A DNA stretch of 64,000 nt from Metridium senile. Taxonomy: Eukaryota > Cnidaria > Anthozoa > Actiniaria > Metridiidae. Under the pieces are notes generated by a model. The model was not told where the DNA came from, did not search any database, and saw only the letters and a list, made by a program, of their open reading frames with translations. Location of the stretch: contig OX459095.1 in assembly GCA_949775045.1 (NCBI GenBank), positions 27,264,978 through 27,328,977 of the forward strand, given 5' to 3'. Below, in pieces: positions 2,823 to 62,720 of this stretch (its first letter is position 1; each line of letters starts with the position of its first letter). The translations under genes were made by a program, and so were the position numbers.

Positions 2823-3464
2823 AACAGGTACAACGAATATTGCAAAGTATGTACATATGGTGACCCTTGATAGCAAAGCAAACAATTTGACAGCAAACTG
2901 TGAACTACCGGGCTCTGATTGGCCATTTGTCCTATGGTTAAGCCATCTGTTTAGGTATCAAAGTGTCTCATTTCTGGTGATTTGGTGTTTATCTACAAAC
3001 TGTTTATAGCCGTGTAAATAATCGATTTTCTTTTAAACTAGCTTATATTAAGCTGTTCTGCGCTGTTTCCATTCATATTCCCGGAGTGTTTTCACTGACT
3101 AAACTCGGTGAAAACGCACCCACTAGCTCGTGATGTTTTGAAAACACTTGAATAGCTCAACTTCCAAGTGCGGGTTTACCTATCATGCCTATCATGGGCT
3201 CCTGATCATGCTTGATTTGCATTAACAAGCATTTCATACCTATACAATCTACTGAACATCTGACAACCGTTAAATGAAGCAAAGAGTTATACTCACCTTA
3301 TAATGCGGTTGCAAGGACTCTTTACTTGGAAAACGCCACTGGTTGAATAAGGAATTGAAAATCAAGTCCTTACAAGCACGCAACGTGAATGGTAATATTA
3401 TCTTTGAATGCATACGTAAAAGGCAGAGGTCAATTGTGTTGAATTACTGACACTCCAACTTCAT

Positions 3465-3560
3465 TAACTATTCTTCTTGACTGGCTAGCCTCGCATACAT
3501 GTGAAAACTCTATTGTGTTCCAATGTGAACACGAGGCTAGCCAGTCAAGAACAATAGTTA
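3465..3560. repeat. Short hairpin (MITE-like) element
   Basis: A 20-bp perfect inverted repeat (TTCTTGACTGGCTAGCCTCG at 3474-3493; complement at 3532-3551) around a 38-bp loop, with weaker extension on both sides. A related, more degenerate hairpin lies at 9545-9660 inside the transposon. Confidence 0.7.
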
Positions 3561-3665
3561 TTAAAATTGGACGCAATATTTTGATTCGACATCAGTAACA
3601 ATCACCACAGGAAGCCAGTCAACGTGTCGCCGCTGCACGTATCCAGAGGATAGCCAAGGGGTAAC

Positions 3666-3742
3666 TAGGCTCAGATTTCAGCCGTTGGGGTTTCGTGCGC
3701 CCGCGATACTCTCCCCACTAACGGCTGGGCGCATCGGCTTAG
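3666..3742. repeat. Left terminal inverted repeat of the AcademH-like element
   Basis: 77 bp, perfect inverted match to 14645-14721. Flanked on the left by the 9-bp target duplication AGGGGTAAC. The helicase start codon follows 85 bp inside. Confidence 0.95.
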
Positions 3743-3827
3743 CATTGTTTTTCTCAGCCAATCAGCGATTTGCCCCTCGAAAATCGAGGGGCATAACATT
3801 AATAAATTAAAATTCAATGTGAACAAA

Positions 3828-5639
3828 ATGGCGGACATATCAACTTTCGATAGTGCTTGTATCAATGCTTTAAAGTCTTTTTCTTTCAATGAATTCAAGG
3901 ATATCCAGCGTAAGGCGTTAAAGGAGATCGTTCTTGGAAATGATGTGTTCGTTAATCTACCGACTGGCTCTGGGAAATCACTGATTTTCCAAACAGCGCC
4001 GCTTGTCTTCGATCACATGGAAGGATGTAGCGGATCTATTGTTCTTGTTATCTCACCTCTGGTCTCTCTCATGAAAGACCAAGTGAATTTCTTAACTTCC
4101 AAGGGAGTAAAGGCTGCATTCATCGGCCAAGAGCAGGATGACGAAGCCGTGAAAGCCGGGGTCGAACAAGGGAAGTACCAAGTTGTTTATGGTTCGCCCG
4201 AGACTTTTCTCGCAAACAAACGCTGGCGCTCCATGCTTAACAACGAAGTGTACAGAGATAAACTACGTTTATTATGTGTCGACGAGGCCCACTGTATAGC
4301 CCACTGGGGTTTCTCAGCTAAAAAGGGGGAGAAGGCTTTCAGAATTTGGTTCAGTCGAATCAACGAGCTTCGTTCGGTCATGAACAAGGTACCAGTGGCA
4401 GCTCTCACAGCCACGGCAAGCAAAAAAACACGCGATAAAATATGCACTTCGTTAGAAATGGAGAGTGCTGTGGTCTTCACAGAAACCCCAAACAGAGCCA
4501 ATATTGGTTATTGTGTAAAACTTGCATCCACTGATGTGAACAAAACATTTGGTGGTCTTATCGATGAATTAAGATCTAAGAAGAAAGACTGTGAAAGAGT
4601 GATTATTTATTGTCCAAGGATAAGCATAGTTTCAAACCTTTACGGAATTTTCAAAGCGGGGCTTGGAGATGCAATCTATGCACATGGAGATACTCACAAC
4701 CTGAGAGAAAGAACTGTTGAAATGTACCATGCAAGAATAGATGATGAAAACAAAGATGAGATCCTTAAATCTTTTGCTAAAGAAGATGGGGTTATAAGGG
4801 TTCTCATAGCCACAATAGCATATGGTATGGGTATAGACTGTAAGAATGTCAAGACAGTCATTCACTATGGTTCTCCAAGAAACTTAGAATGTTATTTGCA
4901 AGAAAGTGGCAGAGCTGGACGAAGTGGAGAAAGAGGTTGCAAGTCTGTCATTTTGTATTCAAATGTTATGCTGCAGCATTGTGATGACGACATTGTGGGT
5001 TACATAAGAAATGACACACAGTGTAGAAGAAAAGCACTTCTAGCACATTTTGACTGTGAATCAGTTAATTGCAGCTATGAAAATCCACATGAGTGCTGTG
5101 ACATTTGTCAAGAAAAATGTAAGTGCACCCAGGGACAGTGTGTCTATCAGTACTTCAACACAACAATTCCTACATCCTTCTCACAAGACATCCAAGTAAG
5201 CAAGAGGACTGTAACAACTACTGATGTTAAACAACTCACCTCAAAGCTGGAGTATCTTCAAAAGTCACTCAATAACAGTTTTAAAGAGCAAGCAGCAAGT
5301 GCCACAAGCCCTCTTTTTACCCCTGTCAGTCTGGTTTCTGGTTTTGGTGAATGCCAAATCATACAAGTCATTGACAATGCCAGCAGAATAATGTCAATGC
5401 AAGATGTTTATAAATTTGTGGATATCTGGCACAAAGATGTTGCCATTGAAATTCTATTTGTCATCAACACTGTCTTTGGAGACATTATGTTTGACTTTGA
5501 TGATGATGCTGAAGATGAGGACACGCAACCTGTACAAGATATTGAATTCTGGGACTTTGAGGATGATGACAGTGTTATCTTAGCTGCCTTGGCTGGATTT
5601 ACTATATCTGAAGATTTGCTTGGGGGGTTTGATGATTGA
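3828..5639 (+). CDS. RecQ-like SF2 DNA helicase of the transposon
   Basis: Intronless 603-residue protein. I chose the ATG at 3828 (AAAATGGCGGAC, good context); the frame is open for three more codons upstream but without an ATG. Counting from the upstream frame start, it has the SF2/RecQ motifs in order: Gln of motif 0 (about 30), Walker A TGSGKS (49-54), motif Ia ISPLVSLMKDQ (79-88), DEAH box (155-158), LTATA motif III (196-200), motif V ATIAYGMGID and motif VI QESGRAGRSG (361-370). A Cys-rich zinc-binding segment (CCDIC, CKC) follows at about 413-436. The stretch after DEAH reads AHWGFSAKKGEKAFRIWF instead of the usual RecQ WGHDFRP loop, so the single-strand sensing loop is divergent. The acidic C-terminal 70 residues resemble nothing I know. 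It probably unwinds DNA during transposition (inference from linkage). It faces the transposase gene convergently. Confidence 0.9.
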   Translation: MADISTFDSACINALKSFSFNEFKDIQRKALKEIVLGNDVFVNLPTGSGKSLIFQTAPLVFDHMEGCSGSIVLVISPLVSLMKDQVNFLTSKGVKAAFIGQEQDDEAVKAGVEQGKYQVVYGSPETFLANKRWRSMLNNEVYRDKLRLLCVDEAHCIAHWGFSAKKGEKAFRIWFSRINELRSVMNKVPVAALTATASKKTRDKICTSLEMESAVVFTETPNRANIGYCVKLASTDVNKTFGGLIDELRSKKKDCERVIIYCPRISIVSNLYGIFKAGLGDAIYAHGDTHNLRERTVEMYHARIDDENKDEILKSFAKEDGVIRVLIATIAYGMGIDCKNVKTVIHYGSPRNLECYLQESGRAGRSGERGCKSVILYSNVMLQHCDDDIVGYIRNDTQCRRKALLAHFDCESVNCSYENPHECCDICQEKCKCTQGQCVYQYFNTTIPTSFSQDIQVSKRTVTTTDVKQLTSKLEYLQKSLNNSFKEQAASATSPLFTPVSLVSGFGECQIIQVIDNASRIMSMQDVYKFVDIWHKDVAIEILFVINTVFGDIMFDFDDDAEDEDTQPVQDIEFWDFEDDDSVILAALAGFTISEDLLGGFDD

Positions 5640-7172
5640 CTTTCTGTCAGCCATTGACAGTTTACTAATGAACAGATGTTAACGATGCCGGTATGTGTGC
5701 TATTTTATGAGGCCTTTTTTCATAAACTATAATTTACAAAGAAACAAATTTCAAATTATACATACACATATTGTTCATGTATACATTTATTTTATATACA
5801 CTTTATATATTTGTAGTGGTTTTGATAGCCCTGTTGTATGTAGTATGTGTTGCTGTGTAATAGAAAACAGCAGATATGGAGTGTAGAGGACATGCCATAT
5901 ATCTGTGAAATAATTGCTGTTTAATGTTTATTCTTAATTTGATCGATTAGTTTGTTTATACCAAAACAATGAGACCTCTTGGCCTCGTGGACTACCTGGC
6001 AGTAGATAGCCCATTCGGCTGAGTACAGCATGGGCTAGCTTGTAGTCACATAGTATTTAGTTATCAACAAACTAACATGTCACTGAGGCATGAAATCATA
6101 AAAGAAAACAAAGGTAGCTAATTATGTGTCATTGTCCTTTGCACTATTCCATGAAAGTGCTATCCACTACTTTGTGTAAAATGTATATAAATTTAAACTT
6201 TTATTATGGTTCAATAACATAACTATTATTATCTATTACACTTCCATGAGAACAGTTATAATAAATAAGCAAATTGTACACCTTACATTAAACAGTTTAC
6301 AGTTTACTTTTTTATCATAACTGTTTCTTTAGAAACACAAATGCAGCTAGTTTACCACTAGTTATTAGGGAACTTTAGATTTGACAACAAGTATGAATGA
6401 GATTTAGTGTGAGTTTTAAAATTGTCCTTCTGTGTTTTGTTGATACTGAATTACATTCCACTTCTTGTTTTTATACATTTGGTGTCTAAATCTATACACA
6501 AGACTACAATAGACCCTTTTAGTTATATATGCCTATTGCACATTTCAGACCACATGACATTCCCTTGAGATTTGTTCTTTTATGTCAAGTATGAAAATAT
6601 TTATGCATAACAAATTATTAAATCCAAAGGGAATGAACATGTGGTTTGAAGTGGGTAAATAAACATTGAAGCTGAATGGGTCTATTCGTCATCAACAACA
6701 CACAGAAGGCCAATTTCAAACTCATACTCAATGTCATACTTGTTGTCAAATCTAAAGTTCCATATTACATTTGTATCTTTTCATTAGAACACATTGGTTA
6801 GTACACATTAGTAACAGGTTAGTGAACATCGTCCTATATACAATTAATATTACAGTATGTACACTTTTATATCAATACCTGTACATAATATCTGTAGACA
6901 ATAACACTCAAATTATCTTTGAAACAAAATCTTGTTGACTAATAGTTTCAATTTAATGACTTTTAGTCACTATCACAGACAAGTAAAGGTATAACAAAGT
7001 ATTGCTTATGTGTATACCTATACTGTTCTAGTTGAGTTGTAGTGACTAAATATCCATTAATTAAAAAAACTATTAGGTAGTAACAATATTGATTTTATTT
7101 CATTGTTTAATTTATTACTCTAACAAATGAAAGTTTGTTCATGTGAATGTCAAATAGGTGTGTTCACCAGCT
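5640..7172. other. Intergenic region between convergent transposon genes
   Basis: AT-rich and without a convincing ORF; it holds the 3' ends of the helicase and transposase transcripts. A nested hairpin element lies at 6508-6686 (AATAGACCC at one end, GGGTCTATT at the other, plus an inner inverted pair TTCAGACCACATG / CATGTGGTTTGAA). Confidence 0.6.
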
Positions 7173-9415
7173 TCATCTTGGCCTCTTTGATAGTGTAATG
7201 TTTTTCTTATGGTTATTGATCCATGTGAACATTGATGCAGTATCAATAAATTGAAGGTAGTCACGTGGACAGTTAGCAAAATATGTCATTTTGTGTTCTC
7301 TTTTAACTGTAAATACTTCTTCGTCAACCAAAACTTTCACAACTTTCATTAAATCTGTATCCATATCTTTCTTTGTATGAGTGCTAGAATTAACACGGAC
7401 ACCAATGTCTTTATCTAGTGTTTCCAGCAAACATTTTATCGGGAAAAAGGCTTTGCATATTCTGCTTACACTCTTTTCGGTAACATTTGCACCTAGACCT
7501 CTCAAAAGTTCCTTAAATAGGTGATTGTCATGTTCTAAGTCTATATCCATAAAAACATTATTACCAAGCCCACTCTTGTTGTTGACCGTTCGGTTCCATT
7601 TCATTCGCTCAGCCTCGCGTGGTGTTAAGAGAGCAGACAATTGAAATATATGGTATAGGGACTCAAGTGCATATTTTCTGCTTCCTTCTCCATCTTGACG
7701 GAAATGCAACAGAAAAATCTTTATACATCGCACCAGACGATCCCCATCACCTTCCCTGCCAGCATCAATGAAGTTGCGTAAAAGTAATGCCATGTTCATA
7801 AGACTGCAATGATAATCAAAAACATCATCCTTGAATGGTTTTTCATCACTGGATGGCTTCATGTCATTAGATGGCTGTTTATCACTGTCTTCTGTTACTT
7901 GGTTTGTGATCTTTGGTGCCTCTCTGATCTCTGGAGGTGGGTTGTGAGTCAATTCATGGCGGCGTCTACATTTACCATCCTGTTTAAATGAAGCATGGCA
8001 ACCTACAAATCTACAAGGATATTTTCCATCAGGATTTACTGGTTGGTTGGCTAGGTAGTCCTCCCATTCTTGAAGTTTATCAACATCAGCAATATGCTTA
8101 AGCAATAGTTCACTATCAACAATATAGGTACATATGAATTGCTTAACAGTAGAGAAAAGATACTTCTGTTTCACTGCATTCAAACTGTCACTCATGCTCT
8201 CATTGAAACCATTTTTAGTTGGTCTACTTTTCACATCATGCATGCCAAAGAAATCCAAACCAGCAGCAATTAATTGAGCATCCAGAACTAAATTTAAAAA
8301 TCTTTTACAAGGAGCAGGCTTTTTCTCTGCTTCTGTGACAACATCTCTCCAGTTTATCAGATTTCGCAAAGCAAAGAGGGAAGTCTTGTCGCAGGCAGAT
8401 GATCCACTGTAAAATCTATCAAATATCAGCTGTAAATGAAAATAGACAAACAATTTATCAGTCAGCACAACAACACATATAATATTCAGATTTTTTTGGG
8501 AGCTATTTTATCTAATACACAAGATGGCTATATCTACTTTATATAATATATTCCATATAAATAAAACATATTTAAGTGTTGCATCATGGTTTATAATAAG
8601 CTAGTATGGCAATTTTATAGCAATGTGCAACTGTATTGTATTGTATAATGTCATTAATTGATCTTGCACTAATAAATGTTATGTATTTCATACTACCCCT
8701 AAAAACTTGTTCTCATGATGCCAGTCTGCAAGCTGGAAGAATAAGCCATCTAGTCTTCGTCTTCTAGAAAAAGAATTGCTGACAGAAAACTTGGCCTCAA
8801 CACCTCTTTCCATGGTTTTTTGGTCACCCACAACTGGTACACGGTCAAATGTCTCATCTTCTTCTTCGCCTGTACTTGGTACCCATTTGTGGAGGTCACG
8901 GACAATGTCAATCATGTCTTCCCCAAGATTTTCATCTTTAAAGATGATCCCCAAATTTACCTTAAGAAATAACATATAACACAAGAGTCAATGATTTTGA
9001 AGTATGTGTGCTTTGATCTATCACTCTACTCAATGAATATTCCTAGAAAACAATAGTTTAGCTTGTCAGTATTTATACTGCACACTTTTAGTAAGTAAGT
9101 AAATAAGTAAACTCTTTATTTCACGTTGGTGACACTAAATAGTCAATGACTAACAAAGCTGTGACCCTTAATACATTAACAAAAATATATATTAAAAGCT
9201 ATAAAATACAAATTATTAGATTATGAAAAAAAAAGATTAAAAGATTATATATAAAAACTATAGAAAAATTTACATGTAAAATCTACTAATATTAATAAAG
9301 TTATATCATAAAATGATATATATTATTTAGATTTTCTAAAAAATATGTATATAAAGAAGATTAATGTTGGTAAAATGGCAGATTATTCCAATTAACTTAG
9401 TTGTAATAACACTCC

Positions 9416-9463
9416 TAGGCTCAGATTTCAGCCTTTAGGGTTTCGTGCGCCCGCGATACACCC
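9416..9463. repeat. Internal degenerate copy of the terminal inverted repeat
   Basis: Within intron 3 of the transposase, TAGGCTCAGATTTCAGCC recurs and continues for about 45 bp with about three mismatches to the left terminus, then diverges. I found no matching inverted end to its right. Confidence 0.85.
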
Positions 9464-9544
9464 GCCCTCTAATTAAACTTAGCACATACGATTGTATTTA
9501 CAATACTGTATCTTGTATTTCTTGAGTGTATATAGACTGAATCG

Positions 9545-9660
9545 AAATGTGGCGACCTGCTATTGTTCTTGACTAACTAGCCTCGTGTTCATGATAGAAT
9601 ACAATGGAATTTTCACATGAAAGTGAGTCAAGAACAATTGTTATTCAAATTGGTTGCCAT
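9545..9660. repeat. Degenerate hairpin related to the one at 3465-3560
   Basis: ATTGTTCTTGACTAACTAGC ... GAGTCAAGAACAATTGTTAT, an inverted pair with the same core words as the hairpin outside the left end of the transposon. Confidence 0.6.
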
Positions 9661-10617
9661 ATTTAGATTCTGTGTATAGCTCGCTATTTGGTTTTAGTGA
9701 ATCATTATTAATAAATAAGAAGGGACATTGCTGTTTAGTCTTTTAAAAACTAGTAGTAACTTATTATTGTTGGCCTCTTCTTAACAAGAAAACCACCCTA
9801 ACCTATTAAACAGGTCTACTGATGAAGACTGTTGATTGCATGGCTTCAATAATTATTCTAGCAGTTTCTGCAACTTAATAACTTTAGCTAATGATTTTTT
9901 ATCACAATTTGTCAACATATGACTGATTGATCTTATTTACATTTATCATACTATTATAGTATAACAACAGCTGCTTCATTAAGGGCAAATGGAGTTTGAC
10001 TTTTTTTCAAAACACCAATATTTTTAGTTAGCTTAATACACCCTTTTTTTTATATGAGAGCCAATTGAAAAGATATATAGTCCATTAATTGTCAATTTCT
10101 AATTCTAAAACTGTAGTGTTTGTACTCTAATATATTTGATGGGATTATAAATTGTGTAAAAACACTTTGGACTAGCTGTGTGCAAAAGTTGATAAACTAA
10201 TTGAGAATTTCCTATTGCAGAGTGCAAAAAAAAATATAAATAACCTAGATTACAACCACTATAAATTTAGTTAAGTCAGTGTGAACAACACTTAATACTG
10301 CTAGATTATGCTTATTCTACAATTACACAATTTAGTAATAAATTAAAAAGTGTTGTTTTTAGTGTTTAAACTCTATTACTAAATTTTCAAAATTGCTAGT
10401 TCAACAATTTAGAAAACAACATATATGTTATGTAAAATAATGCAATTTATTATTACTATTTTTTATGGATATATTGTTTGCTCTAATATGTTCTTTATAC
10501 TTTAAATACACAAGCAAACAAACACAGTCAAAAAGTATTTAAATCAAAAATTAACTCAGTTATAAATACCACTTATTATCTTACTCAGCTCTACCATTGA
10601 GTTTTGGAATTAACTTT

Positions 10618-10856
10618 GTGTATACACCTACTTGCAGTAAGGTTGTCATACAAAATAGAACATTTGCCACAGAAAATAGAACATTTGTGATTTAGTGCGA
10701 AATGAATTAATTGAAAGACAAAAGAGAGAGTTCAGCTTGAGTGATCTTCCTTTGTCTTTCAATCAATTCCTATCATACTAAATCACAAATGTTCTATTTT
10801 CTTTATAACAAATGTATATTTTTTGTATGACAACCTTACTGCAAGTAGGTGTATAC
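10618..10856. mobile_element. MITE nested in transposase intron 3
   Basis: Long inverted repeat: GTGTATACACCTACTTGCAG at the left, complementary CTGCAAGTAGGTGTATAC at the right, with further pairing inside (AGAACATTTGTGATTTAGTG and its complement). The AAAGAC..GTCTTT core resembles a second hairpin at about 49225-49345. Confidence 0.75.
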
Positions 10857-12950
10857 TAAACACTGTCTGTGAGCAAAAAAATAATTTGGCACTTTTCAAT
10901 AATACATGCATTATTTATAGTTATCAAACAATAAAATTAATTATTTAGGTATTTAAAGTAGAACTTATGTAGCTTATTATTGTTTGTAAATTGTTTTAAA
11001 TTAAATTAAAATAAAAAAAAGAACTTACGTTTATGTTTTGTTGCACATGCACATGCACTATTTAGTATGTATGCCCTACTCAAACAAGACATTTTGTTAC
11101 CTTGCTTGATTTCTTTTTAAGTTCTTCAGAGTGCTTGTGTTGAATATGGGATGGTACAATGTCCTTGAATATTCCAAAACTCTTGAAGTGCTCAACAAAT
11201 ATTCTTGAAACAATGACTACAAAGTCCTTCATTAGTCCTTTTTGTTCTGCAGGGCTGGGTAAAATAGCTGCATTTGGAAGGTCCAAGATATCAGCAATTG
11301 GTTTATCATCACAATATTCCAATGGGTTTACCCTGTCAGTCACTGCATTGTGGTTACACCAGTGATTATCTCTATTTTGGTTATCTGATGTCATGTCAGA
11401 CACTGTTATCATGATGTCAAGATTATCCAAGACAAGGCTGTAGCTAGGAGGTCTCTCAATCTTTGCTATTTCTTCTTTCACATTATGTAGTTTTTGCTTT
11501 GTTGATTCTAACATGTCTTGGCTATCACCGGATTCGATCACTTGCTTTTGTAACTCATTCAGTTGATCATTTAGACTGGCCTTTTTCACTGTAAGTTCCC
11601 TGTCTTCCTTCAAGTATCTTGAAATGTCTTCTCGCTGTTGCACAAGTGATATGCAATAATCTGCACCAACATCTTCTAGAACTTTATTCAAACTTTTTGG
11701 GGACATACACAAGCCAAGATGGTTTAGACGTACAATACCCTTTAATGAAAAGTACAGTAATTATATTAATCAGTCATTACATCAGGGCAGGCCTGGAAAT
11801 ATAGCCTGGGAAGTGACCTAACACTCAACATCCAGCAGTTTCATGCTCTTTCAACAGTATTAATTCTGGGGGTACTGATTGTAACAGGGTCTTAACAATA
11901 AGTCATTCAGCATTTTTTTAACTTGAGGGCTGGGGAAAACCCATCATATACTCTGTGGTTTAATTCAATAAAAATTGATACATTTGATACATTTGAGTAA
12001 ATATGCATATAATCACTTTGTCAACTCTTAAAACAAACTTAAACAACATAATTTACCTTCTTAGATGTTCCAGCAGCTCTTAAAGTAAGACTTATCAAGT
12101 AGGGAATCAAACTCATTGCAGGATCTCTCACTTTCAAAAGCACACCAGCAGCAAGAAGTATTCCTGGGACTTTTGTCTTTGACTCTACACCTTTCTTTTT
12201 TGAAAGCTTTGGGACTGCCACTGACATAAGAACATCATTTATAAGAGGTGCTTTCTCCATTATTTCCTTGCCAACCAGTTCCCACGAGAAAGTAGTGAGA
12301 GTTTCCTTAGTTGGTGTTTTTAAGAGGGATGGGGATTTAGTTGAACACAATTGCTTTGCTTCTCCTTCAATCTCAGCACATATCAGCTCCATTATGTTAT
12401 CCTTAAGCTTCTTATTTGAAAGAACAGCAGTTGCAATTGACTTTAAGCTTGCGTTTCTTGCTAAGGCCTTGCCTACTTTGTGGAGATCTACAGGTAAATG
12501 GCTGGACTTTTTGCCACTTGAATACTGGATTGTTATCTAAAAAAAATGTTGTCAAATTAGGACAAACTACAATGTACAGGAACAGTACAAACATCAAACA
12601 TGACTGTTTTGTCCGTTAACATTTTCCTTTATTCGTTTTATTTTATTTTTATATATATTGTAAAACATAACTATGATTTACCTCAATAGCTTGACATTCT
12701 TGCTGCAATACAATTTCTTTCGCAGTCTCAGTCTGAATGTTGATATCGACGGTGCCTTCATAACAGCATGTTTCCCGCTGTTGTTGGAAAGCAGGGGCCG
12801 GTAACAAAGGCTCAAAAATCGCTCTTGGTTCTTCTTCCAGATCAAATGCCTGCTCATGTTGTGGCTTTGCTACTGAGAATGCCAGACTCTTCGCTGAGCG
12901 ACTTCTGATCGAGTTTTCTGGTTCGATGTCTGACGGCAGTCCACGTTTCG

Positions 12951-14138
12951 CACAGGTAGCCCAAGCTCACTGTTAGTGTTGATTTACTAAGGGATATATG
13001 GGTACTTTTGAACTTTCGATTTTTTGCCTTAAAATTTAATAAAATTCAATAAAACTCTTACCGTGTCTTCTTGTTGATCTCTTTAATCCTCTGAGTTAAT
13101 TTCAGCCGATTTCGTTCAGGAAAAATTACCTTCTCCCTGCCTTACATAAGAGGAGGAAAGGTAGGAAGCGAGCGCCTCCGAACCGCCTCCAAACTGCTCA
13201 ACTCGATCCCAAATATTTCGCCAAAAAAGCTTTCCAATCCAAATATTTTCTCCCAGGGATTCCAATGGATAGATAAGCCATCCATTTATGCCAACGGATT
13301 TCAAAGTAAAGCTTTTTAGCAGCCACTAGCCTCCATTAAGTTCGACGAAACGCTTTCAAAATTCGCTTCAAACACCGTGACCCCATTATCTATGGGCACC
13401 CAAAGCCGTTAAATCTCAGAGAGAGACTGGGAACTAACAAATAACTGACCTTTCCACGGGGACACGGGATTCAAAGAATGTCAATATTATATTTAATTCA
13501 GAACTTACTAGATTTGAAGAGAAATATACGAGCTCGTTTTCATTACTTTTCTTTACAAAATCTCTATTTTCGTTACGGTTTTCCTTTTAAATTTTGTATT
13601 TGTAACGACATTCTTTGAATCCCGTGTCCCCGTGGAAAGGTCAGTTATTTGTTAGTTCCCAGTCTCTCTCTGAGATTTAACGGCTTTGGGTGCCCATAGA
13701 TAATGGGGTCACGGTGTTTGAAGCGAATTTTGAAAGCGTTTCGTCGAACTTAATGGAGGCTAGTGGCTGCTAAAAAGCTTTACTTTGAAATCCGTTGGCA
13801 TAAATGGATGGCTTATCTATCCATTGGAATCCCTGGGAGAAAATATTTGGATTGGAAAGCTTTTTTGGCGAAATATTTGGGATCGAGTTGAGCAGTTTGG
13901 AGGCGGTTCGGAGGCGCTCGCTTCCTACCTTTCCTCCTCTTATGTAAGGCAGGGAGAAGGTAATTTTTCCTGAACGAAATCGGCTGAAATTAACTCAGAG
14001 GATTAAAGAGATCAACAAGAAGACACGGTAAGAGTTTTATTGAATTTTATTAAATTTTAAGGCAAAAAATCGAAAGTTCAAAAGTACCCATATATCCCTT
14101 ACTAAATCAACACTAACAGTGAGCTTGGGCTACCTGTG
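12951..14138. mobile_element. Foldback (long-arm palindrome) element inserted in the transposase exon
   Basis: Two 532-bp arms (12951-13482 and 13607-14138) in inverted orientation surround a 124-bp spacer. Their encoded 62-residue frames (13116-13304 minus, 13785-13973 plus) are identical, so the arms are nearly or fully identical. The termini read CACAGGTAGCCCAAGCTCAC. GTTTCG flanks both sides (12945-12950 and 14139-14144), a 6-bp target duplication. Removing the element and one GTTTCG restores the transposase frame exactly, which supports these ends. No transposase is encoded; the 62-residue frames resemble nothing I know. The family is probably non-autonomous. Confidence 0.9.
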
Positions 14139-14644
14139 GTTTCGTCCGTCGTTCAAAGTTGGAATTGAAGCGCTGTAGTAAGTCATTCTTTAATTCATCG
14201 GACTTTTCTTTGTACTTTAAATGATTATCCAGGTCCCTCGAACAGGGAGATTCACAAATATAACGATGTGCACTAGCACTACTGTTCAGAAGTTCTTGCG
14301 GCACTTCTAAAACTTCAACAAGTTTAAGTAATAGCGCGGACGACGTCTTCCCGCCAAGCGATTTTCGTTTACGCTGATTTTTCTCTTCCTTCTGACAAAT
14401 AATACATCCGATGGGGTTGTTTAAAGATACACACGTTTTACTAGGGGTTGTTTCGATGGACATTCTTCATCTTGTAAGTCATCAGGTAGTTTATTCGAGC
14501 TTTCGAGCTTGCAAAATACGACTTTGACAATCAGATGTTTTGGAAAGTTTGTTTATTTTAGCTTACATTACAACAAATTTCACTTCCGTTTCCGTTTTTT
14601 TATGCTAATAGCATAATTACGTCACGGACATGCGCGACACGTTT

Positions 14645-14721
14645 CTAAGCCGATGCGCCCAGCCGTTAGTGGGGAGAGTATCGCGGGCGCACGAAACCCC
14701 AACGGCTGAAATCTGAGCCTA
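14645..14721. repeat. Right terminal inverted repeat of the AcademH-like element
   Basis: 77 bp, perfect inverted match to 3666-3742. Followed by AGGGGTAAC at 14722-14730. The transposase start codon (14463) lies 182 bp inside. Confidence 0.95.
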
Positions 14722-16282
14722 AGGGGTAACGCGTGACGCGTGATTTAGGCTTAAATAAGTGCGTGATTCGTGACAAATAACGGACGATTTAGTTATTATT
14801 CGTGAATACTATGTTGAACGTGACTTAAATTTGTATGTGATGCGTGAATATCATAAATATCGATTCGTGAAACGTGATGACAAATCCCCCCCCTGTGAGC
14901 TGCTACAGGGAGTAGCCTGAGTATCAGGCCCTCTGGGGAGGGGAAGATGGACTGATACTCAGGCTATACAGGGTGGGGAACCGAGGGTTAAGGGTTCTCC
15001 TGTTCCCTGACATGGTCCTCGTCTACTCCTTTTGAAAATTATCTTGAATCTTATCACTATATCAAAAATAAAAATAATTATAGTAAAGATGAGATCAAAC
15101 CAATAACCTGAAAAAAGAACAAGAGAGAGATAGAGAGAGAAAGAGAGTACATAATACAGTGGAACCCCACAATACGGCCACCCGCTAATTAATACGGCCA
15201 CCCCGTTATTATTATTCAGTTATTATTAAAGGGGGAGGGTCTACTCGTTGTCCCTTTTAGGGTTTGAAATCAGTGTTTTGGTCCCGCTTAGGGTGATAAT
15301 GACGAGAATGCCCACCTGCTAAGTTTTGTGGCCCCATTTAGGGTATTTTAAATAAAGATCACGGCTTCTTTTCAAAGATTGATTTCAATTTTAAACCCCT
15401 TTCCGGTCCCCCGTATGCGTGAAATTGCATCACTGCATGCAATTTGCTGTGTCGGTACAGTTCCGCCTTATTAGGCTCCGACCTCGTTCCCAGAGCCGGC
15501 TTTTTCCATGAGGAGAAGAGACCCTGGGTGTTTTGGGGTATACCGCTGATATGTAAAATTTACTGGCGCTGTTTTTTTTTTTTTTTTTCTCGATCAAGTC
15601 GATCACAACAAGATAGAACATATTTGTTTTTTTCCCCCGATATTACCCCTCATCATCCTCGGGAACCTAGGGGTTAGTATTCTTTCACTCGTTCCTCCTT
15701 TCCTTTTTTAATCTCTTGGGGTTTTTTATTTTTATTTTTTATTTGAATTGTAAGTAAGTATTATTTTTATTTTTATTTGTGTTTGTATTTTAAATATATT
15801 TGCATTTTTATTTGTAATTGTAAATCAGCACTGCTTATTCCCAACCAACATGAATCTTTTAGTTTTGAGTAAAAAAAACATTCAAACAATAAAACATCTA
15901 AAGGAAAGGAAAAAACAAGGAATATAAAACATTGCGTAACAGAAAACCCGCGAAAATTGTGTAAATGGCGGGCTTTTGCCTTTTATGTCACGTGACCTCT
16001 ATTGCATTGCGCATGACAACAGGAAATGACATGGCGTCGTAGGCCTGTGATCTTTGTAGAATTTTGATAATTTTTATAACCTAAACGTACAGAATTACTT
16101 CATCTTATTCATCTAAACCACAAATACAAATTTGGAAAAGCATTCTTCTATCCTTCTCACTAGAAAAACTCCCATAAACTTTAGAATTCCTTGAAATATT
16201 TCACAATTTGTGGGATTAACCTCTGTTCAGCGTGAAACTGATTTTTCATTCATCTATCGAAGTTTTAAAGTAATATATCTTC
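14722..16282. other. Intergenic region with the presumed PP4C promoter
   Basis: It starts with the right target duplication and a GCGTGA-rich stretch. A short hairpin lies at 14911-14968 (AGTAGCCTGAGTATCAG and complement), and CAGTGGAACCCCACAATACG at 15159 resembles a pogo-like transposon end with no partner seen. A T-run (15572-15588) and AT-rich sequence precede the PP4C start. No TATA box or other promoter element stands out. Confidence 0.5.
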
Positions 16283-22200: not shown

Positions 22201-25200
22201 GTTTAACTGATCAATTATGATTCATCAGACTATGTACATTACTTTTAAAGCAAATGTTCTTTTTGTTTTAGGTGCGATATCCTGATAGAATAACCCTTAT
22301 ACGAGGAAATCATGAAAGTAGGCAAATTACACAGGTAAGTTATATTTTGGTGCATTTATTTTAATAATTATTTTTATTTTATTAAAATAACTTCATACCA
22401 ATACTATCATTGTACTTAATGTGAATTCTGTTTTATTCCAGGTTTATGGATTTTATGATGAATGTCTGAAAAAGTATGGCTCAATAACCGTCTGGAGATA
22501 TTGCACCGAAATATTTGATTATTTGAGTCTGTCTGCTATTATTGATAAAAAGGTAAAACACACTTTACTCATTAAAATGTCTGTCTGTCTGTCTGTTTGT
22601 TTGTTTGTTTGTAGCAATATACTCAAAACAAGGGAAACTATTCTTATTGTATAAATTTCAGTATTTATAGCAACAAATGATCTTCATGATCTTTATTGAA
22701 CCCATAGAATTACAGCAAGAAACAAATCTGTTTAATATAACATTGAAATTGAAATGCATGCTGGTTTTCAGGAATAACTGAATAGCTCAAAATTCTTAAA
22801 AGCTAATAAAGGATGCCCTTATTCTGAGTATAGGCTGTCTATTGCATAGACACTGTCTATGTAAATATTGACATCAAATGTACATCACCCAATGGAACAT
22901 GCTAGGGCCATGGGTGTAAAACATGTCAAGACACATATTTTTTCGTCTGTGTCCATTGATTTATGGAAAGGGCTATTTAGTTATTTATCTGGGGACAGTT
23001 GTACGAAGCCTGGATAAAGTTATCCACTGGATAAGAGTTATCCAGTGTATAGAATTTGTACAAGTTGTATCCGTAGGATAGGGATTTATCTGGTAGATAG
23101 CACTATTCAGTCTTTGTACAACTGGTCCCTGTACTACACCATATCAATAATATCATTGATATAAATACTAAGAATGTATTCACAGTGTTCTAACTATTGT
23201 TTTTGTTTACTGTTAGATATTTTGTATTCACAGTGTTCTAACTATTATTTTTGTTTACTGTTAGATATTAAGCACTTAATGACTGGTCCCGAGGGAAACA
23301 GTTAGTTTTGTTTCCCGAGAATCTCAATGTTTGAGATTCGAGGGAAACAAAACTAACTGATTTCCCGAGGGATCAGTCATTAAGTGTTTTATTATATTAC
23401 CCTATTCAAACGAAGAAACATTTTCTCTCCATTTTGAATTTTTTTTATTTACGTGGATTTATTCACCTCTCACGAGGGGAATAGATTTATTTATTTCCCT
23501 CCGCGTGACGTGCTGTCGACCAATAAGAAAACGAGTTTGAATAGGATATATAATAATTTGTATTCACAGTGTTCTAACTATTGTTTTTGTTTACTGTTAG
23601 ATATTTTGTATTCACAGTGTTCTAACTATTGTTTTTGTTTACTGTTAGATATTTTGTATTCACAGTGTTCTAACTATTGTTTTTGTTTACTGTTAGATAT
23701 TTTATATTCACAGTGTTCTAACTATTGTTTTTGTTTACTGTTAGATATTTTGTATTCACAGTGTTCTAACTATTGTTTTTGTTTACTGTTAGATATTTTG
23801 TATTCACAGTGTTCTAACTATTGTTTTTGTTTACTGTTAGATATTTTGTATTCACAGTGTTCTAACTATTGTTTTTGTTTACTGTTAGATATTTTGTGTT
23901 CACAGTGTTCTAACTATTGTTTTTGTTTACTGATAGATATTTTGTGTTCACAGTGTTCTAACTATTGTTTTTGTTTACTGTTAGATATTTTGTATTCACA
24001 GTGTTCTAACTATTGTTTTTGTTTACTGTTAGATATTTTGTATTCACAGTGTTCTAACTATTGTTTTTGTTTACTGTTAGATATTTTGTATTCACAGTGT
24101 TCTAACTATTGTTTTTGTTTACTGTTAGATATTTTGTGTTCACAGTGTTCTAACTATTGTTTTTGTTTACTGTTAGATATTTTGTATTCACAGTGTTCTA
24201 ACTATTGTTTTTGTTTACTGTTAGATATTTTGTATTCACAGTGTTCTAACTATTGTTTTTGTTTACTGTTAGATATTTTGTACTCACAGTGTTCTAACTA
24301 TTGTTTTTGTTTACTGTTAGATATTTTGTATTCACAGTGTTCTAACTATTGTTTTTGTTTACTGTTAGATATTTTATATTCACAGTGTTCTAACTATTGT
24401 TTTTGTTTACTGTTAGATATTTTGTATTCACAGTGTTCTAACTATTGTTTTTGTTTACTGTTAGATATTTTGTATTCACAGTGTTCTAACTATTGTTTTT
24501 GTTTACTGTTAGATATTTTGTATTCACAGTGTTCTAACTATTGTTTTTGTTTACTGATAGATATTTTGTGTTCATGGTGGGCTTTCTCCATCAATAAGTA
24601 CATTAGATCAAGTAAGTACATTGCCATTATTGGTTCTATTGTTAAATATTGTTGTCATTGATATTGTTGTCATTGTTGTATTGCTATTTTTGATGTTATT
24701 GTTACAATCATTGCTCTTGGAATTGTTTTAAACATTGTGAATATTATATTATTGTAATTATTGTTATTGTAATTACTGTTGTCATTGTTGTTGTTAGTGT
24801 TGTCATTGTTAGTATTGTTGTTGTATTGCCATTGCTGTTGTCGTTGTTGCCATTGTTGTTGTCATTGTTATTGTTGTATAATTGTTGTTGTCATTGTTAT
24901 CGCTATCATCATTATTGTTATGGTTTTGCATTTCACTAAGTCTAATCCATGTACTTTGTTACAGATAAGATCCATTGACAGAAAACAGGAAGTACCTCAT
25001 GATGGTCCAATGTGTGATCTACTTTGGTCTGATCCAGAAGGTATGCAATGATATTAAGGTGTTTGCTGTTATAATTTCTTTCTAATATCACATGACTGTA
25101 TAAAAAATACTTGATTCTGATTGGCTGACGAACTGTGTTTTTTTCTTAATACCGTGCAATTAATTAATTGCACACATCCGGGAACTTTGCTTTTGGATGC

Positions 25201-39378: not shown

Positions 39379-40444
39379 CAAGCAACAAATAAATATCACT
39401 ACGATTCGAACATAAAATAAATTATACTTCTTTTATACGATGTATATGTTAGGCCAAATTCGAACGTCGCACCTCGCATGTGCCGAATCTAATGCAACTA
39501 GACGCACTTAGTGCGTTTACTCAGGCCACCTCGTGGAGTAGTAATTGTTTTTGATAGGTGGTTTTACCTGTGGCATTACGTCACGTGTAATCTTGACACA
39601 ACGATAGACCCATAGATTGAAAAGGTAAACCTAGACTCAGGCTCCCCTGCGGGGTAGCCTGAGTAATGAGCAAAACCTATTGTTTGAATTAATTTGCATT
39701 ATGTAATGTGGTGCTTATATAGCGCGTTTCACATACGTCTCAATGCGCTGTACATTAGATTGGGCACACGTGACATGCGACGTTTTAATGACGCTTTACA
39801 GTAATGTAGGCTTTTCAAAGACACTATTGATATACATTTTTAACCTGTTTAATTTAGAAATTAATAAATTTTATTTTGATATGTAAAAAATGTAATAAAT
39901 ATAAAACACGCAACGTCAACGGTATTCATAGTGATTTAATGATTTCTGTAACTACTACAAATATCACCAAAGGGAAAGTTTTATTCGAGCATTTGGGAGT
40001 AAAAGTGATCAGTAAAAAAAGTGAGTACTTAAAATTCAGTTACTTGTACACGTCAATTTGTACTGGCATAGTTGAAAAAGAAACTCGGCAAAGACGACTG
40101 CATGGCTTCGTGACGTGCATTTCATTTCGGGGGGAGGGGTGGGATGGGTGAGCAACCTCATTCCCATGGCCCTCTTCCTTCGCTTTTGAGAGAGCCCTGG
40201 AAACGAGGTTTTTTTTTCATTTTGCTAAACTGCAAAATCTTGCGACGCCGACTACCATGTGAAACGCATTATCGTCCCCAAAAAAAAAAAACATGTTATT
40301 TTTGTTATTCTAAGGTTTGAAATACCCTGGTAGATACGTATGTGGGTCTGATCCGCGGTTATATGATGTGTGTATGATTATGATCGTCGCGGAGAAATAA
40401 GCAATTTATGCAATTGCAATTATAGAAGCCCGAAAAAAATTCGG

Positions 40445-40516
40445 GACTTCAAGGGGATTTGAACCCATGACCTTTGCAGTACCGGTGCAATGCTCTACCA
40501 ACTGAGCTATGAAGCC
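40445..40516 (-). repeat. tRNA-Thr-like (GGT) unit, probably SINE-related
   Basis: 72-nt cloverleaf: acceptor GGCTTCA/TGAAGTC, D-arm GCTCAGTTGGTAGAGC, anticodon loop CCGGTAC (anticodon GGT, unusual C at position 33), T-loop TTCAAAT. The T-stem has one mismatch. It is embedded in repeated flanking sequence (ATAATTGCAATTGCATAAAT), so I read it as a dispersed tRNA-like element, not a working tRNA gene. Confidence 0.7.
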
Positions 40517-40797
40517 ACATATGTTGGTAGGAGGTCATTTTTGCCGAGTTCAATAAACCACAGAATGAGATATGTAATTATAGAAGCCAGAAAAAAAATT
40601 CGGGACTTCAACGGGATTTGAAGTCCCGAATTTGTTTCGGGCTTCTATAATTGCAATTGCATAAATTGCTTATTTCTCCGCGACGATCATAATCATACAC
40701 ACATCATATAACCGCGGATCAGACCCACATACGTATCTACATATCTCACTCTGTGGTTTATTGAACTCAGCAAAAATGACCTCCTACCAACATATGT

Positions 40798-40869
40798 GGC
40801 TTCATAACTCAGTTGGTAGAGCATTACACCGGTACTGCAAAGGTCATGGGTTCAAATCCCGTTGAAGTC
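40798..40869 (+). repeat. Second tRNA-Thr-like (GGT) unit, opposite orientation
   Basis: Nearly identical to the unit at 40445-40516 but on the other strand and with mismatches in the D-stem (ACTC) and anticodon stem (TTACA/TGCAA); its T-stem pairs. A third, partial 3' end is at about 40605-40640. Confidence 0.7.
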
Positions 40870-43823
40870 CCGAATTTTTTTTTCGGGCTTCTATAATTGC
40901 AATTGCATAAATTGCTTATTTCTCCGCGACGATCATAATCATTCACACATACCCTGGTAACAACTGAATTTCATGATCAGCTGGTATATGGTGAATCATC
41001 AAATATCTAATAGCTAGATATACGTCAAATGTGAACTAAGAATGTCGGTGAAACCATAGTTTATAGAGGTGAAACTAGTATAATCAAGTGAAGTATTTAT
41101 TGTTATTATTACATGATCACATCGGTTTTCATTGTTATTTGTAGGGCTTTATATCGCGTATTACCCCCATTTGAGGGCAATATCTATATATTGCCCTTGA
41201 ATACTAATTTGAGGGCAATTTTTAATCTATATATTGCCCTTGAATACTAATGTATATTGCCCTTGAATACCAATGACCTAATCCCTATATTATCCTTTTC
41301 CGTTCTTTTTCAACTTTATATGTAACGTTAAACTTTTATATGTAACGTTAAATTTTCTAGTTGCGAACATTTGACGGATAAAAAATCATCTGATAGAGTG
41401 ACCGGCTTTTCGAGGATCGAACCCTTTGCTTACAAATCCTGACCCTAACACTTTATCCTAACTGTCCGATCGATGTCAGTTGGTGAGAGGAAAACGTATT
41501 CATTTGTTCGTTAAAGTTCATTAGTATTGTAGTCAGGGGCGGATTTAGGGGTGGGCCGAAGGGGCCGCAGCCCCCCCCTTTTGTTGAATAAATGATCACT
41601 CAAAATGCTGGAAATCGCATCTCTGACGGTCTCAATTTCAAAATTTTCTGGGGGGCATGCCCCACACCCCCCTAGATACTCCCGCCTTCGGCGGTCGATG
41701 GGACATGGGGTAAAATGGGAGCTTGGGTTGGTCTTATTTTTGACTGGGAAAATCGATTGGATGCAAAACTGCAAAACTGATGGGATTATGGGATTTTTTT
41801 ACTGGGATTTGGTCCTAATATTAACTGGGAAATGGGATTCGGACCCCCCCTTCAGGACCCTCATCCAAAACAGGAAGGGTTAGGAAAGGTTTTTTTTTAC
41901 CATATTAAAGCTAATTTTTATTACATCCGCATTGTTAACGTAAGATTAAGACCAGGAAGGCGGATTTAGATCGAAAGTGGCCAAATTCCGCTTAAACAGG
42001 ACAGGAAAATGCTAATTTCCTTACTATTACCACTTGAAGCAGCTGCAGTGTAAAACGAGTCAAAGGTTACAGTGATTAGCAAGTATTTGGTATAGCTTTT
42101 TTATTTGAATAAAACAGTATTATTCGTATATTTTGTGACAAATTAAAGTCAAAGAGTAACGTGGTATTGTTTTCTTTGATGTTTCTGGTCGAGGGAAAGT
42201 AGCTGAAAGCCGGAACAAATAGCACCAAATACAAACTAACAAACAATTCTTTTCTCATCATAAATTTAGATGTTTTTACTCCGCCCAAGCGAATCAAATA
42301 CGTTCAAACTTGTGCATTATGTTTTGAGTAAAACGAAAAACCCCTCAGCCGAGAACTGAAGTATAAATAAAAATGAATAGGTTTATACATTTTAGAATTC
42401 AGTTGTGATGCTAATCTGCCAACCATTTTAACAATAGATTTTTTAATTTCCTTTATTTTAATAGCAATGGTTGGTTGGCAAAATTTCATAATAAAATACT
42501 TCACTGTACGTCCACCTATATGCTTGACGAAGTCCCGTGGGTTTGTTTTCTTCACCTATAGCATGTACGTGATCAAACCGCTAGTTTATCCCGCAGAACG
42601 TCACAGGCGTTTTAGATTGTTTACAGCCCAAGTATCATTGGTGATGAACTCTGAAAGGTTGAACGCGTATAAACGTGATATAAACCAGTACAAACAAGAA
42701 AGAAACTTTACCTAATAGATAGGGTGTTATATTTGCTGTGAACGATGTGTGAATTTGTTTTGAATATAGAAGTTTATTGAATGATCAAATATACTTGAAA
42801 GATTTACGGTTAGAAACGTCGCTCGGTGCACGACAAACGACTATAATATTTAGTCTCACGTCGTGTTAAATATTATCGATGGATATATTCATTTATACTT
42901 TTTTGAAAGGAATAAATTAAGGCATATTTTATATTTGATTTGCGTTCAATATAGACGTTATAAGCGTTTGCTATAAGCGGTTTTTTTCCCTTATCAGCTG
43001 TATTTAGAATAACCACGTACAGTTGACGTTTTTTAAATTGATAATTGCATTAGACAGCAATACGTTGTTGAATTAAACACGGCTGCTGTCAAAATGACAT
43101 TCATTAAATCATCGTTATATTTTAATTACCTGTTAACTTCATGCTGAGTAGATTATCTAAATAGATTATTTTATAACAAGAAAAGAAAAATCGGGGTTAA
43201 AATCCCTTTCAGATTTTTCAGATTTTCTTCAGCTTGTAAAACATGGTATAAAATATAAAACAAACATGGAATTGACGGGGAAAAGAATCCACAGTTATTC
43301 AGTTATGCAATGCAGCGATTTACACACTTTTCTGAGTAACTTAGGTTTCCTTTATATATACGTGAGTATAAGTGAGCTTAGTGTTTACAAGTGCTATTGT
43401 GTAATGCTTATTTGCCAACCATTTTCAAAATATATTTTTTAATTTTCTTTGTTAATGTCAATGGTTGGTTGGCAAAACCATAACAAATTACGTCACTGTA
43501 CGTCCACCTATAGAAGTCACACATGTATAGTTCTGTTTGCACTGAATATATATAAGTAGCATGCAGAATACCATGCATGCATAGTTGACCGTGTTAACAG
43601 TGTATGGCGTGGTGGTCTATATGGTATATGGTAATCACATCTAGTACGGTCTATTGCCATTCTACTTCACGTGCTCTTTGTCATTTCCTGTCACGCCTCG
43701 CTTGTTCCCGACATATCAGTTTGCATGGCCGCATATTTTAAAAGCAAGATGACTCAGAGTTGAAACGCTATCAAAGATACACCCTGGACGTCTGTAACGA
43801 CTTAGTGGGTCAGTTCAAGCAAT

Positions 43824-44951
43824 ATGTCGAACAACACATCTATGGACGTAGTGCAAGATGGTTTCCCTCCTATCGTACGACATATCTACGTTGGGTATTA
43901 CGTGATCATATTCTCAATGGCCGTAGTCGGAAACTTATTCGCTATTTTAACTTGTTATAAGAACTTTAAGCAAAGTTCTGCGATACTATTAACTTACGTT
44001 GCCAGTCTAGCTGCAGCCGACTTGTTGTTCACTCTGCTCACTCCTTTTGATCTCGCTGCGTTTTTGGCCGGTTCTTGGGTATCTGGCTCATTCATTTGCC
44101 GTTTTCAAAGTTTCCTGATCGAAACTAGTTACACTACTTCGATTATTACACTAGCTGCGATCAGCCACGAACGTCTGATGGCTGTCTCAACGCCGCTATT
44201 GGCTCGATCACAAAGAATCTTTCAAAGAAAACTTATCCCTGTTATTATTTGGTTGTTCTCGCTCGTTGCATGTGCTCCTCTTCTGTATGCGTATGTGATA
44301 GTGAAAGATGAGAAGAGAATTGAGCAATGTGTCAATATAGGATGGGGAAGTCAAGCAAGACAGATATATTACTCCATCCAAGGGATAGGATTTTTTATAT
44401 TTCCAATGCTATACATGGTCTATGCTCATTTTAGGATCTTCAGGATTCTCAAAAAGCATTCAATCACAAGAGAACGACTCGCGTCAAGACAAACTGAAAC
44501 AGCAAGTCAGCGTAAAATTGGCAAAATGCTTGCAATAGTGACATGCATTTTTGTCACATGCTATTTTCCTTTTGTTGTAATTCGCTCTTTGAAATACTCC
44601 AACTTATTCAACCACAATATGATCTGGCGACTCGTGCAGTTAATGATATTCACCCAAGCTGCGGTCAATCCTGTGATTTATTGCTTCTACAACAAACAAT
44701 TCCGGGCCGTCTTTAAAGACCTGTTAAAGTGTCATTGGTATACGATTCGTGACAGACCTGAGATGTCGGGTGGAAAGACAAGGTCGTCTTCTTGTATCAC
44801 GCCATGTGGGACGGTGAAACTAAATGTTGTACATGGCAGCAGCGGGCAGAGTACACCGGTGCTGAGACTGAAAGATGGCACGAAAGATAACGCAGAACTA
44901 ATAATGACATTGAATGAGAAAATGGATGGGAATGGGATAAGTTATGTCTGA
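43824..44951 (+). CDS. Class A (rhodopsin-like) G-protein-coupled receptor
   Basis: Intronless, 375 residues, seven hydrophobic segments. Conserved positions: Asn37 in VVGNL (TM1), Asp66 in LAAADLL (TM2), Trp85 before TM3, Cys92 at the top of TM3 with partner Cys169 in the second extracellular loop, HERL at 115-118 in place of DRY, Trp143 (TM4), Pro194 (TM5), CYFP at 246-249 in place of CWxP (TM6), and NPVIY at 282-286 (TM7). The N-terminus has overlapping N-glycosylation sequons (NNTS, residues 3-6) and no signal peptide. The Ser/Thr-rich tail ends GISYV. The pattern is that of peptide-type class A receptors, as in large cnidarian orphan sets; the ligand is unknown. The start ATG has a short overlapping upstream frame (43760). 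The last codons and 3' flank are repeated in tandem downstream. Confidence 0.93.
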   Translation: MSNNTSMDVVQDGFPPIVRHIYVGYYVIIFSMAVVGNLFAILTCYKNFKQSSAILLTYVASLAAADLLFTLLTPFDLAAFLAGSWVSGSFICRFQSFLIETSYTTSIITLAAISHERLMAVSTPLLARSQRIFQRKLIPVIIWLFSLVACAPLLYAYVIVKDEKRIEQCVNIGWGSQARQIYYSIQGIGFFIFPMLYMVYAHFRIFRILKKHSITRERLASRQTETASQRKIGKMLAIVTCIFVTCYFPFVVIRSLKYSNLFNHNMIWRLVQLMIFTQAAVNPVIYCFYNKQFRAVFKDLLKCHWYTIRDRPEMSGGKTRSSSCITPCGTVKLNVVHGSSGQSTPVLRLKDGTKDNAELIMTLNEKMDGNGISYV

Positions 44952-60542: not shown

Positions 60543-61319
60543 TTATTCCACTGCGAAAATTGCACAGAAGGCTTGATTTCTTGCAAAAACAAAAATCTGT
60601 TGTGGAGATGTCCCGGACTCAGACAAACGCGAATGCAATAAAATAATCAAACCCTCAAGGTGAGGGAGTAAGAAAGGTTTTGCCTGTGAGGGGGTAGACC
60701 TAGCTTGCAATTGTTCTGCTTTAATGCTGCTTAAATATCGCTTAACAATTATGCTATTCGCTGGGTTACCGATGCTTAATAAAGTATCCCACTCTCCTAC
60801 TCTATCGTGCTGTGCAAAAATTGTCCTTAATTTTCCTATCATGGAGTCTACAGTTCCAAACGCCAAACGAGTTTGATACATGCAATTTTGCTGCCCTTTT
60901 CGGCCAATCATGGTACATTGTGCGTCGTGCACTTTTGTTCTTCCTGCTTTATCTTTCCAAACCAGGCATTTGACGATATCTGCTGGCCTAGTGGAAGCAA
61001 CGTTCTTAGGCCTGCTCAGGCTCATCAAGAATCCGTTGAGTTCTAATTCCATAGCTGAAATTTGCTTGTTGTACTGTGTGCATTCTCTAGCACCTTGAAG
61101 TGTGACTAGTCGTTGTTCAATTTCATCCTCTTTAACAGGGAATCTTAGTTTCTTCTGACGAGGAGGTTGCTCTCCGATACGCTTTCTTTTGTACCCACAA
61201 CTTTGACAGAAATTAAATGTTTCGTCGTTTGCATGACAGCACACCGGGCACGCTACTGATGGTTGAAAAAACTTTGGCACATACGGTAACGGCTGAATAG
61301 TTAAGAAAAGTGTGTTAAT
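60543..61319 (-). pseudogene. DIRS tyrosine recombinase, N-terminal part only
   Basis: The frame reads through a C2-type zinc ribbon (CPVCC..CQSCGY), a basic stretch, and the SAM-like core-binding domain typical of cnidarian DIRS recombinases (KNVASTRPADIVKCLVWKDK, RLAFGTVDSMIGKLRTIF, SIGNPANSIIVKRYL). It ends at FARNQAFCAIFAVE, where the catalytic Arg/His/Arg/Tyr domain should begin; the sequence beyond is unrelated. TTAACTATTCAG/CCG at about 61301 looks like a possible splice acceptor for this ORF; no in-frame ATG is obvious near the start. Confidence 0.7.
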
Positions 61320-61341
61320 AAGTACGCCAAATTAGGTTCAC

Positions 61342-62718
61342 TTAAATTCTTGGACTGACTCTGAATGCCCAGATATCCGCAGGGCATGGGGATGGTCCCC
61401 AGCCATGCTTTGCCGGGGACAAAATCGTATCATAGTCGTTCTTTAGACCCAGGCAGAACGACTCGACAGACACTGATCTCAACGTCGGCCACCACACTGG
61501 TTTTGGAGAGGTTTTGGGAATGATTATTGTGAATGGAATATTGAAAGCCAGCAAAAAACGTAGGACCGGAGCTATCAGGTTGAAAGGCGGGAAAACATAT
61601 GGGTTTGCCCATAGCATCGGAGCTGCCTCTGGAGATTGTGCAAATATATTTACCCCTGCTGATTTTGGAGTTGGAAACGGTGTAAAGTGAGGTAAAAGCC
61701 GACCCGAAAGGTCACACTGTGTATTGCTATCGAGTGCCATAAGATCGACGGAGTGACCCTGAACTCCCCCAAATGCGGTCTGAACTCGCGACCAGGCCTT
61801 GGGTGATAACGTGGAGTCCAGCTTAGACACATGTCGCGATGGCTCATCCGCTTCGTTCAAATGTGTAGGGGTGTGCCGCAGTTCTAATTGCGCGTTTCTC
61901 CGTGAGATCACTTGGAAGAGTTCTTTGGTGGCTTCTGTGAGCTCCTGGCTTCTACTACCCTTTCTGTTCCATGTGTCAATGAGCACCTGGCTGTCAGTTA
62001 AAGCGTCCACTCTGCAGTCTCGAACGTATTCAGGTGCTGCTTTTAGGACATTGACCAACGCTAACGTTTCTCTGGTGGTGATGTGAAATAACCTTTCCTT
62101 TGGACTCCAGTAATCTCGTAGCTGTATGTTAGTCTTGGGGAGTCGAATGGAACCGCCCCATCCAGAACCAGAGGCATCGCTGACTACTGAGATGTGCCAA
62201 TGTTTTTCGCTCCTCCAAGGTACGTGCCCCGTCCATGTGTCAAGAAATCTCCAATGTAAAATTTCTTCCCTTAAAGGGCCGGATATCTTGACGTCTAAGT
62301 TATGTACTGCTGACCCTATGGCTGCCGCAATGTTCCTGATGTATAACTTGGCCGCCGGTACCGCCGCGGAAAAGGAAACACATTTTCCTTGGAAACGCTG
62401 TAGTATTTTAACAGGAACTGTTTTTTGCCTACGCAAAATCTCCTCCCTTAACTGAATAAACTTTTCCAGCTTTTGCGGCAGAATTTTGAATGCTTGCAAT
62501 TCGGAATCCACTAAAAATCCTAAATACTCCATCTGCTTTGCGGGTGTTAGGGCACATTTGGATAAACCTAGGAAATATCCTAGAATGACTAGGACTGCGC
62601 AGACTACGTAAGTTGCTGTGGACGAAGCAAGTTGACTTATTTGAGGCGTGCGCTTCTCTTTTGGAATAGCCCACGGGCCTGACGAGGTAATGATCCCTCC
62701 TGTTAACCTGTCGTCAAT
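61342..62718 (-). pseudogene. DIRS reverse transcriptase C-terminal part plus RNase H
   Basis: Open from IDDRLTGG (62718), the second half of the RT catalytic box, through the RT thumb (MEYLGFLVDSELQAFKI) and RNase H. RNase H catalytic candidates are Asp in VVSDASGSGWGG, Glu in TTRETLALVN and Asp in ALTDSQVLIDTW. Then comes HLNEADEPSR and a C-terminal stretch (DLMALDSNTQCD, FPTPKSAGVNIFA) common to DIRS/Ngaro-type polyproteins. There is no internal stop or frameshift; the only visible damage is the LINE. Confidence 0.8.
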
Positions 62719-62720
62719 GT

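Follow-up and report, generated by a model that had tools for sequence, protein, structure and literature searches.

Transposons of the AcademH kind, for which the original paper is reportedly that of Kojima in 2020, are expected to carry matching terminal inverted repeats. In the available text of one later description, AcademH elements encode a helicase and make target duplications of 9-10 bp, whereas AcademX elements encode a nuclease and make duplications of 3-4 bp, and it is suggested there that this difference in length is linked to the encoded helicase or nuclease (PMC10045372). The AcademH elements of Basidiomycota, Ascomycota and Mucoromycota are described, in the available part of a second source, as low in copy number (PMC10799480). 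Excerpts of two further papers report that Academ has been amplified in bivalves (PMC10294476) and that Academ-1 repeats are present in three coral genomes (PMC12005156). In this study, we have analysed a window of a cnidarian genome (the whole stretch of DNA examined, 64 kb) which holds a transposon of 11,056 bp at positions 3666-14721. Based on our results, we hold it very likely that this is a DNA transposon of the AcademH kind which moves by cut-and-paste. Its transposase gene is interrupted, and the copy in the window is probably now non-autonomous.

The limits of the transposon are set by the following features.

3666 to 3742, plus strand: left terminal inverted repeat, 77 bp, matching the right end at 77/77 positions
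14645 to 14721, minus strand: right terminal inverted repeat, 77 bp, matching the left end at 77/77 positions
3657 to 3665, no strand: target-site duplication, left copy, AGGGGTAAC
14722 to 14730, no strand: target-site duplication, right copy, AGGGGTAAC
9416 to 9472, plus strand: third, partial copy of the end sequence, with about 89% identity to the terminal repeat over 57 bp, in the intron between segments D and E of the transposase gene

A preliminary description of this DNA had proposed 77-bp inverted repeats without a mismatch and a 9-bp duplication outside both ends, and the two proposals were confirmed. Beyond the 77 identical bp, the left and right end sequences diverge immediately. 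In the whole 64 kb, with both strands counted, the 9-mer AGGGGTAAC is present only at the two flanks of the transposon. The identical ends, together with the duplication, make a recent insertion plausible. When the terminal A/T is included, the flank match extends to 10 bp; since the internal end-like copy also starts with TAGGCTCAG, a duplication of 9 bp is favoured over one of 10, and the same shared start supports the boundary that had been drawn in the preliminary description. We found no partner end for this internal copy within the 64-kb window, and it may be what is left of a nested element derived from AcademH. A shorter unit of 5.3 kb, running from 9416 to 14721, was considered and dropped because the bases 5' of 9416 do not match AGGGGTAAC. 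Separately, a short repeat that has inverted arms is present in diverged form just outside the left end (3454-3587) and again in the D-E intron (9560-9670).

The first of the two genes of the transposon encodes a helicase.

3828 to 5639, plus strand: RecQ-type helicase, single intact ORF of 603 aa, with its ATG at 3828 and its stop at 5639

This open frame, already recognized as RecQ-like from the sequence, was borne out by Pfam matches to DEAD (8.3e-23) and Helicase_C (4.7e-19), accompanied by ResIII (6.8e-6) and by a RecQ zinc-binding match that is under its cut-off (0.0015). Against solved structures, BLM, WRN and RecQ lead, with human BLM at the top (2.5e-47). When proteins were searched with the helicase, 7,998 candidates were scored, and 7,625 of them matched at E 0.001. 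Among the best 120 of these 7,625, the closest is the protein P0003 (70% identity); the same 120 include the uncharacterised P0005 of Oculina patagonica (59% identity over 99%) and a match from Montipora capricornis (51%) and, further down, molluscs (Pecten, Magallana, Mytilus) and the crinoid Antedon. We built a tree of 34 rows, consisting of the window and 33 sequences picked from the 120 listed matches, with a midpoint root that serves the drawing only. The window helicase groups with P0003 and P0004 (100/99) within a clade of 11 rows (100/98), in which every row with an organism name comes from an anthozoan (Oculina twice, Montipora and Paramuricea). Six rows, four of them named prokaryotes and one an alga by its label, are separate from the other 28.

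The transposase gene (14463-7173, minus strand) lies tail-to-tail with the helicase gene and was modelled from six segments.

14139 to 14463, minus strand: segment A, part of the first coding exon that runs from the ATG up to the insertion, aligned to P0001 residues 11-110 with 39% identity
12682 to 12945, minus strand: segment B, remainder of the first coding exon past the fold-back, with a 12-residue P0001 match (67%, E 2.3 alone)
12057 to 12536, minus strand: segment C, exon, 59% identity to P0001 residues 214-371
11101 to 11739, minus strand: segment D, exon, 54% identity to P0001 residues 372-592
8697 to 8960, minus strand: segment E, exon, 70% identity to P0001 residues 593-680
7173 to 8429, minus strand: segment F, last exon, 418 aa and stop, with a C2H2-like motif within the DUF6589 region

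A fold-back separates segments A and B, which together make up a single exon, so that the model has five exons and four introns, and all four introns are GT-AG and of phase 0. Segment A has Cys/His pairs which look zinc-binding by eye. The spliced product of segments B-F, of 967 aa, matches DUF6589 (PF20231) with an E of 5.2e-36, in agreement with the DUF6589-type transposase of the preliminary description. When residues 90-930 of this product were used as the query, only two relatives were found among 7,988 scored candidates, the uncharacterised P0001 of Oculina patagonica (1088 aa) and P0002 (658 aa); P0001 is the best full-length match, with 62% identity and with 99% of the searched region covered. 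With the frame of exon F, 77 of 3,797 candidates matched. The five that are named with an organism are all anthozoan (Exaiptasia, Actinostola, Desmophyllum, Paramuricea and Montipora), and the host of the transposon is therefore probably an anthozoan too. One match, P0123, is 100% identical to the exon F frame over 97% of the query, the next best being at 86% and 80%; it is found on 14 contigs, which could be copies or one locus sequenced repeatedly. We note, and have no explanation for, the contrast between this identity of P0123 with exon F and the best helicase match of 70% among the best 120.

A C-x4-C ... H-x3-H motif, which in the window is CRFVGCHASFKQDGKCRRRHELTH, is kept in the exon F alignment inside the DUF6589 region. 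In P0001 numbering, and counting the rows with a letter, its residues are conserved in 56/57 (C819), 55/56 (C824), 56/58 (H838) and 56/57 (H842), and we read the motif from its sequence as a putative C2H2-like zinc finger. The C/DxxH signature was also considered; on visual comparison, DWHH in the window stands opposite DWHL in P0001, so that a strict DxxH is not conserved, and the signature was not used as evidence. In an AlphaFold model of the transposase, the presumed catalytic core was poorly modelled, and fold searches gave no convincing match.

The insertion that splits the first coding exon is delimited as follows.

12951 to 14138, no strand: fold-back element of 1,188 bp, splitting the first coding exon of the transposase
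12945 to 12950: duplication GTTTCG, low-coordinate side of the fold-back
14139 to 14144: duplication GTTTCG, high-coordinate side of the fold-back

The arms of the fold-back, of 532 bp, are complementary at 531/532 positions, with the single mismatch at 12987, and enclose a loop of 124 bp. A conceptual read-through from segment A into the fold-back meets a stop at codon 117. In P0001, residues 11-110 correspond to segment A and segment B starts at 111 (a weak match of 12 residues, E 2.3), which indicates that the Oculina protein has no insertion at this place. The transposon had been called complete, with both genes readable; this stands for the ends and the helicase, but the frame of the transposase is broken by the 1,188-bp fold-back. 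Judging from the sequence, a full transposase is most likely not made from the window copy, which probably, with its ends complete, is yet non-autonomous. The exact 6-bp duplication GTTTCG on both sides of the fold-back argues against two other accounts, that it is an assembly artefact or an intron that is spliced out, with a functional transposase as the result, and we consider these accounts very improbable. In their favour, chimeric reads are a possible source of long near-perfect inverted repeats, and a CAG/GTAG donor-like site was seen by eye at the high-coordinate junction. Against them stand the early stop in the read-through and the frequency of hairpins in this window (26 pairs in 64 kb). 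A rescue by splicing was rejected after two acceptor candidates, picked by eye and not exhaustively, gave a stop or a frame shift.

Having found the transposase gene to be interrupted, we return to the kind of transposon that carries it. The preliminary description had called it AcademH-like, and in three respects the element fits: the 9- or 10-bp target duplication is present as AGGGGTAAC (in one copy), the helicase gene as a 603-aa RecQ-type ORF, and the matching terminal inverted repeats at 77/77 bp. In a fourth respect, that of an Academ-type DDD/E transposase, the element has a candidate in its transposase, which was matched to DUF6589. AcademH is the best-fitting label, in that the two genes agree with it together with the 9-bp duplication and the inverted ends. 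The interpretation in the preliminary description is partly supported. In common with AcademH, as set out in the available text of two sources, the element has a helicase gene, a 9-bp target duplication and a transposase (PMC10045372, PMC10799480). It differs in the fold-back within the transposase gene of the window copy, and a comparison by description showed no difference in kind. The element does not agree with AcademX, its duplication being of 9 bp and that of AcademX of 3-4 bp. The element contains nine ORFs of 100 aa or more; a Pfam scan of six of these found no nuclease domain besides the minor ResIII match within the helicase, and the remaining three ORFs are antisense to scanned ones.

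A separate DUF6589 superfamily, which would be similar to AcademH in its genes and in the length of its duplication and have a transposase unrelated to Academ, would agree with the Pfam entry, in which the function of DUF6589 is given as unknown, with our literature search for DUF6589, which found no paper in the collection searched, and with the source of the link between DUF6589 and Academ transposases, a link presumed from general background and from the preliminary description. We nevertheless regard it as very improbable: the helicase and the 9-bp duplication jointly match the AcademH description in the available text of PMC10045372, and Academ-1 repeats are known in three coral genomes according to the excerpt of PMC12005156. 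It is highly doubtful that a distinct anthozoan lineage would be formed by DUF6589 elements in which the RecQ helicase lies tail-to-tail and the transposase, with its internal C2H2-like finger and its Cys/His motif near the N-terminus, belongs to a superfamily not yet split from Academ. Kolobok elements have TTAA as their target duplication, and the element, with its 9-bp AGGGGTAAC, lacks this mark of KolobokH. Very improbable, too, is the reading as a Kolobok-type element with an acquired RecQ helicase (KolobokH-like) in place of an Academ, KolobokH being likewise a DDD/E transposon that carries a RecQ helicase but reported, in the available text, from fungi only (PMC9587614).

Relatives of the helicase and of the transposase are both present in cnidarians, and the P0001 transposase of Oculina patagonica is uninterrupted where the window copy holds the fold-back. 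We compared the two match lists by eye, and four contig sizes coincide. The helicase match P0004 and the transposase match P0126 each have a longest contig of 8,017 b, and P0011 and P0158 one of 67,382 b; by these two coincidences the gene pair may recur, the location of both partners on the same contig being deduced from equal sizes alone. The size of 3,216 shared by P0042 and P0130 is weak evidence of linkage. That of 1,519 (P0089, P0133) was discarded as chance, because the helicase match P0089 is a generic RecQ from a different source than P0133. Among viral contigs, no relatives of P0126 and P0004 were confirmed.

Two other hairpins of the transposon lie outside its coding segments.

6368 to 6762, no strand: small hairpin element, MITE-like, perhaps flanked by a 5-bp duplication (TATTA), in the spacer that separates the helicase and transposase genes
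10620 to 10856, no strand: hairpin element within the D-E intron

We considered whether hairpins are a special feature of the transposon. The 64-kb window has 26 hairpin pairs whose arms measure 34 bp or more, and four of the 25 shown fall in the transposon, that is in about 11 of 64 kb, approximately the density found elsewhere; as hairpins are frequent throughout the window, those inside the transposon are not special, and the idea was dropped. At 40330-40950 there is a cluster of overlapping inverted repeats (arms of 74-144 nt, 97-99%). Other features of the window include an open frame of the rhodopsin GPCR family at 43806-44948 (7tm_1, 4e-38) and a long ORF at 23438-24661, in which a 16-residue unit, repeated in tandem, makes up most of the length, with no Pfam match at E 0.01. 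On the minus strand, at 60546-62730, an ORF with an ALOG domain (2e-20) adjoins an ORF with a weak RT RNase H match below the cut-off (8e-4), a pair that presumably resembles a DIRS-type tyrosine-recombinase retrotransposon.

By analogy with DDE cut-and-paste transposons in general, the transposase of an intact relative would bind the ends and excise the element, which would then be inserted at staggered cuts 9 bp apart. The helicase could open DNA, either at the ends or in the course of repair. The window copy would be mobile only with a transposase supplied by another copy. The distance from the left repeat to the helicase ATG is 85 bp and that from the right repeat to the transposase ATG 181 bp; since both genes start just inside an end, the terminal repeats may double as promoters.

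In conclusion, the element leaves the knowledge of the AcademH lineage unchanged. The most useful correction to the earlier reading is that perfect ends are no guarantee of autonomy, as a fold-back here splits the transposase gene. With its exact ends, target duplication, gene structure and nested insertion, the element, from a probably anthozoan host, represents an aid for the curation of AcademH in cnidarians.
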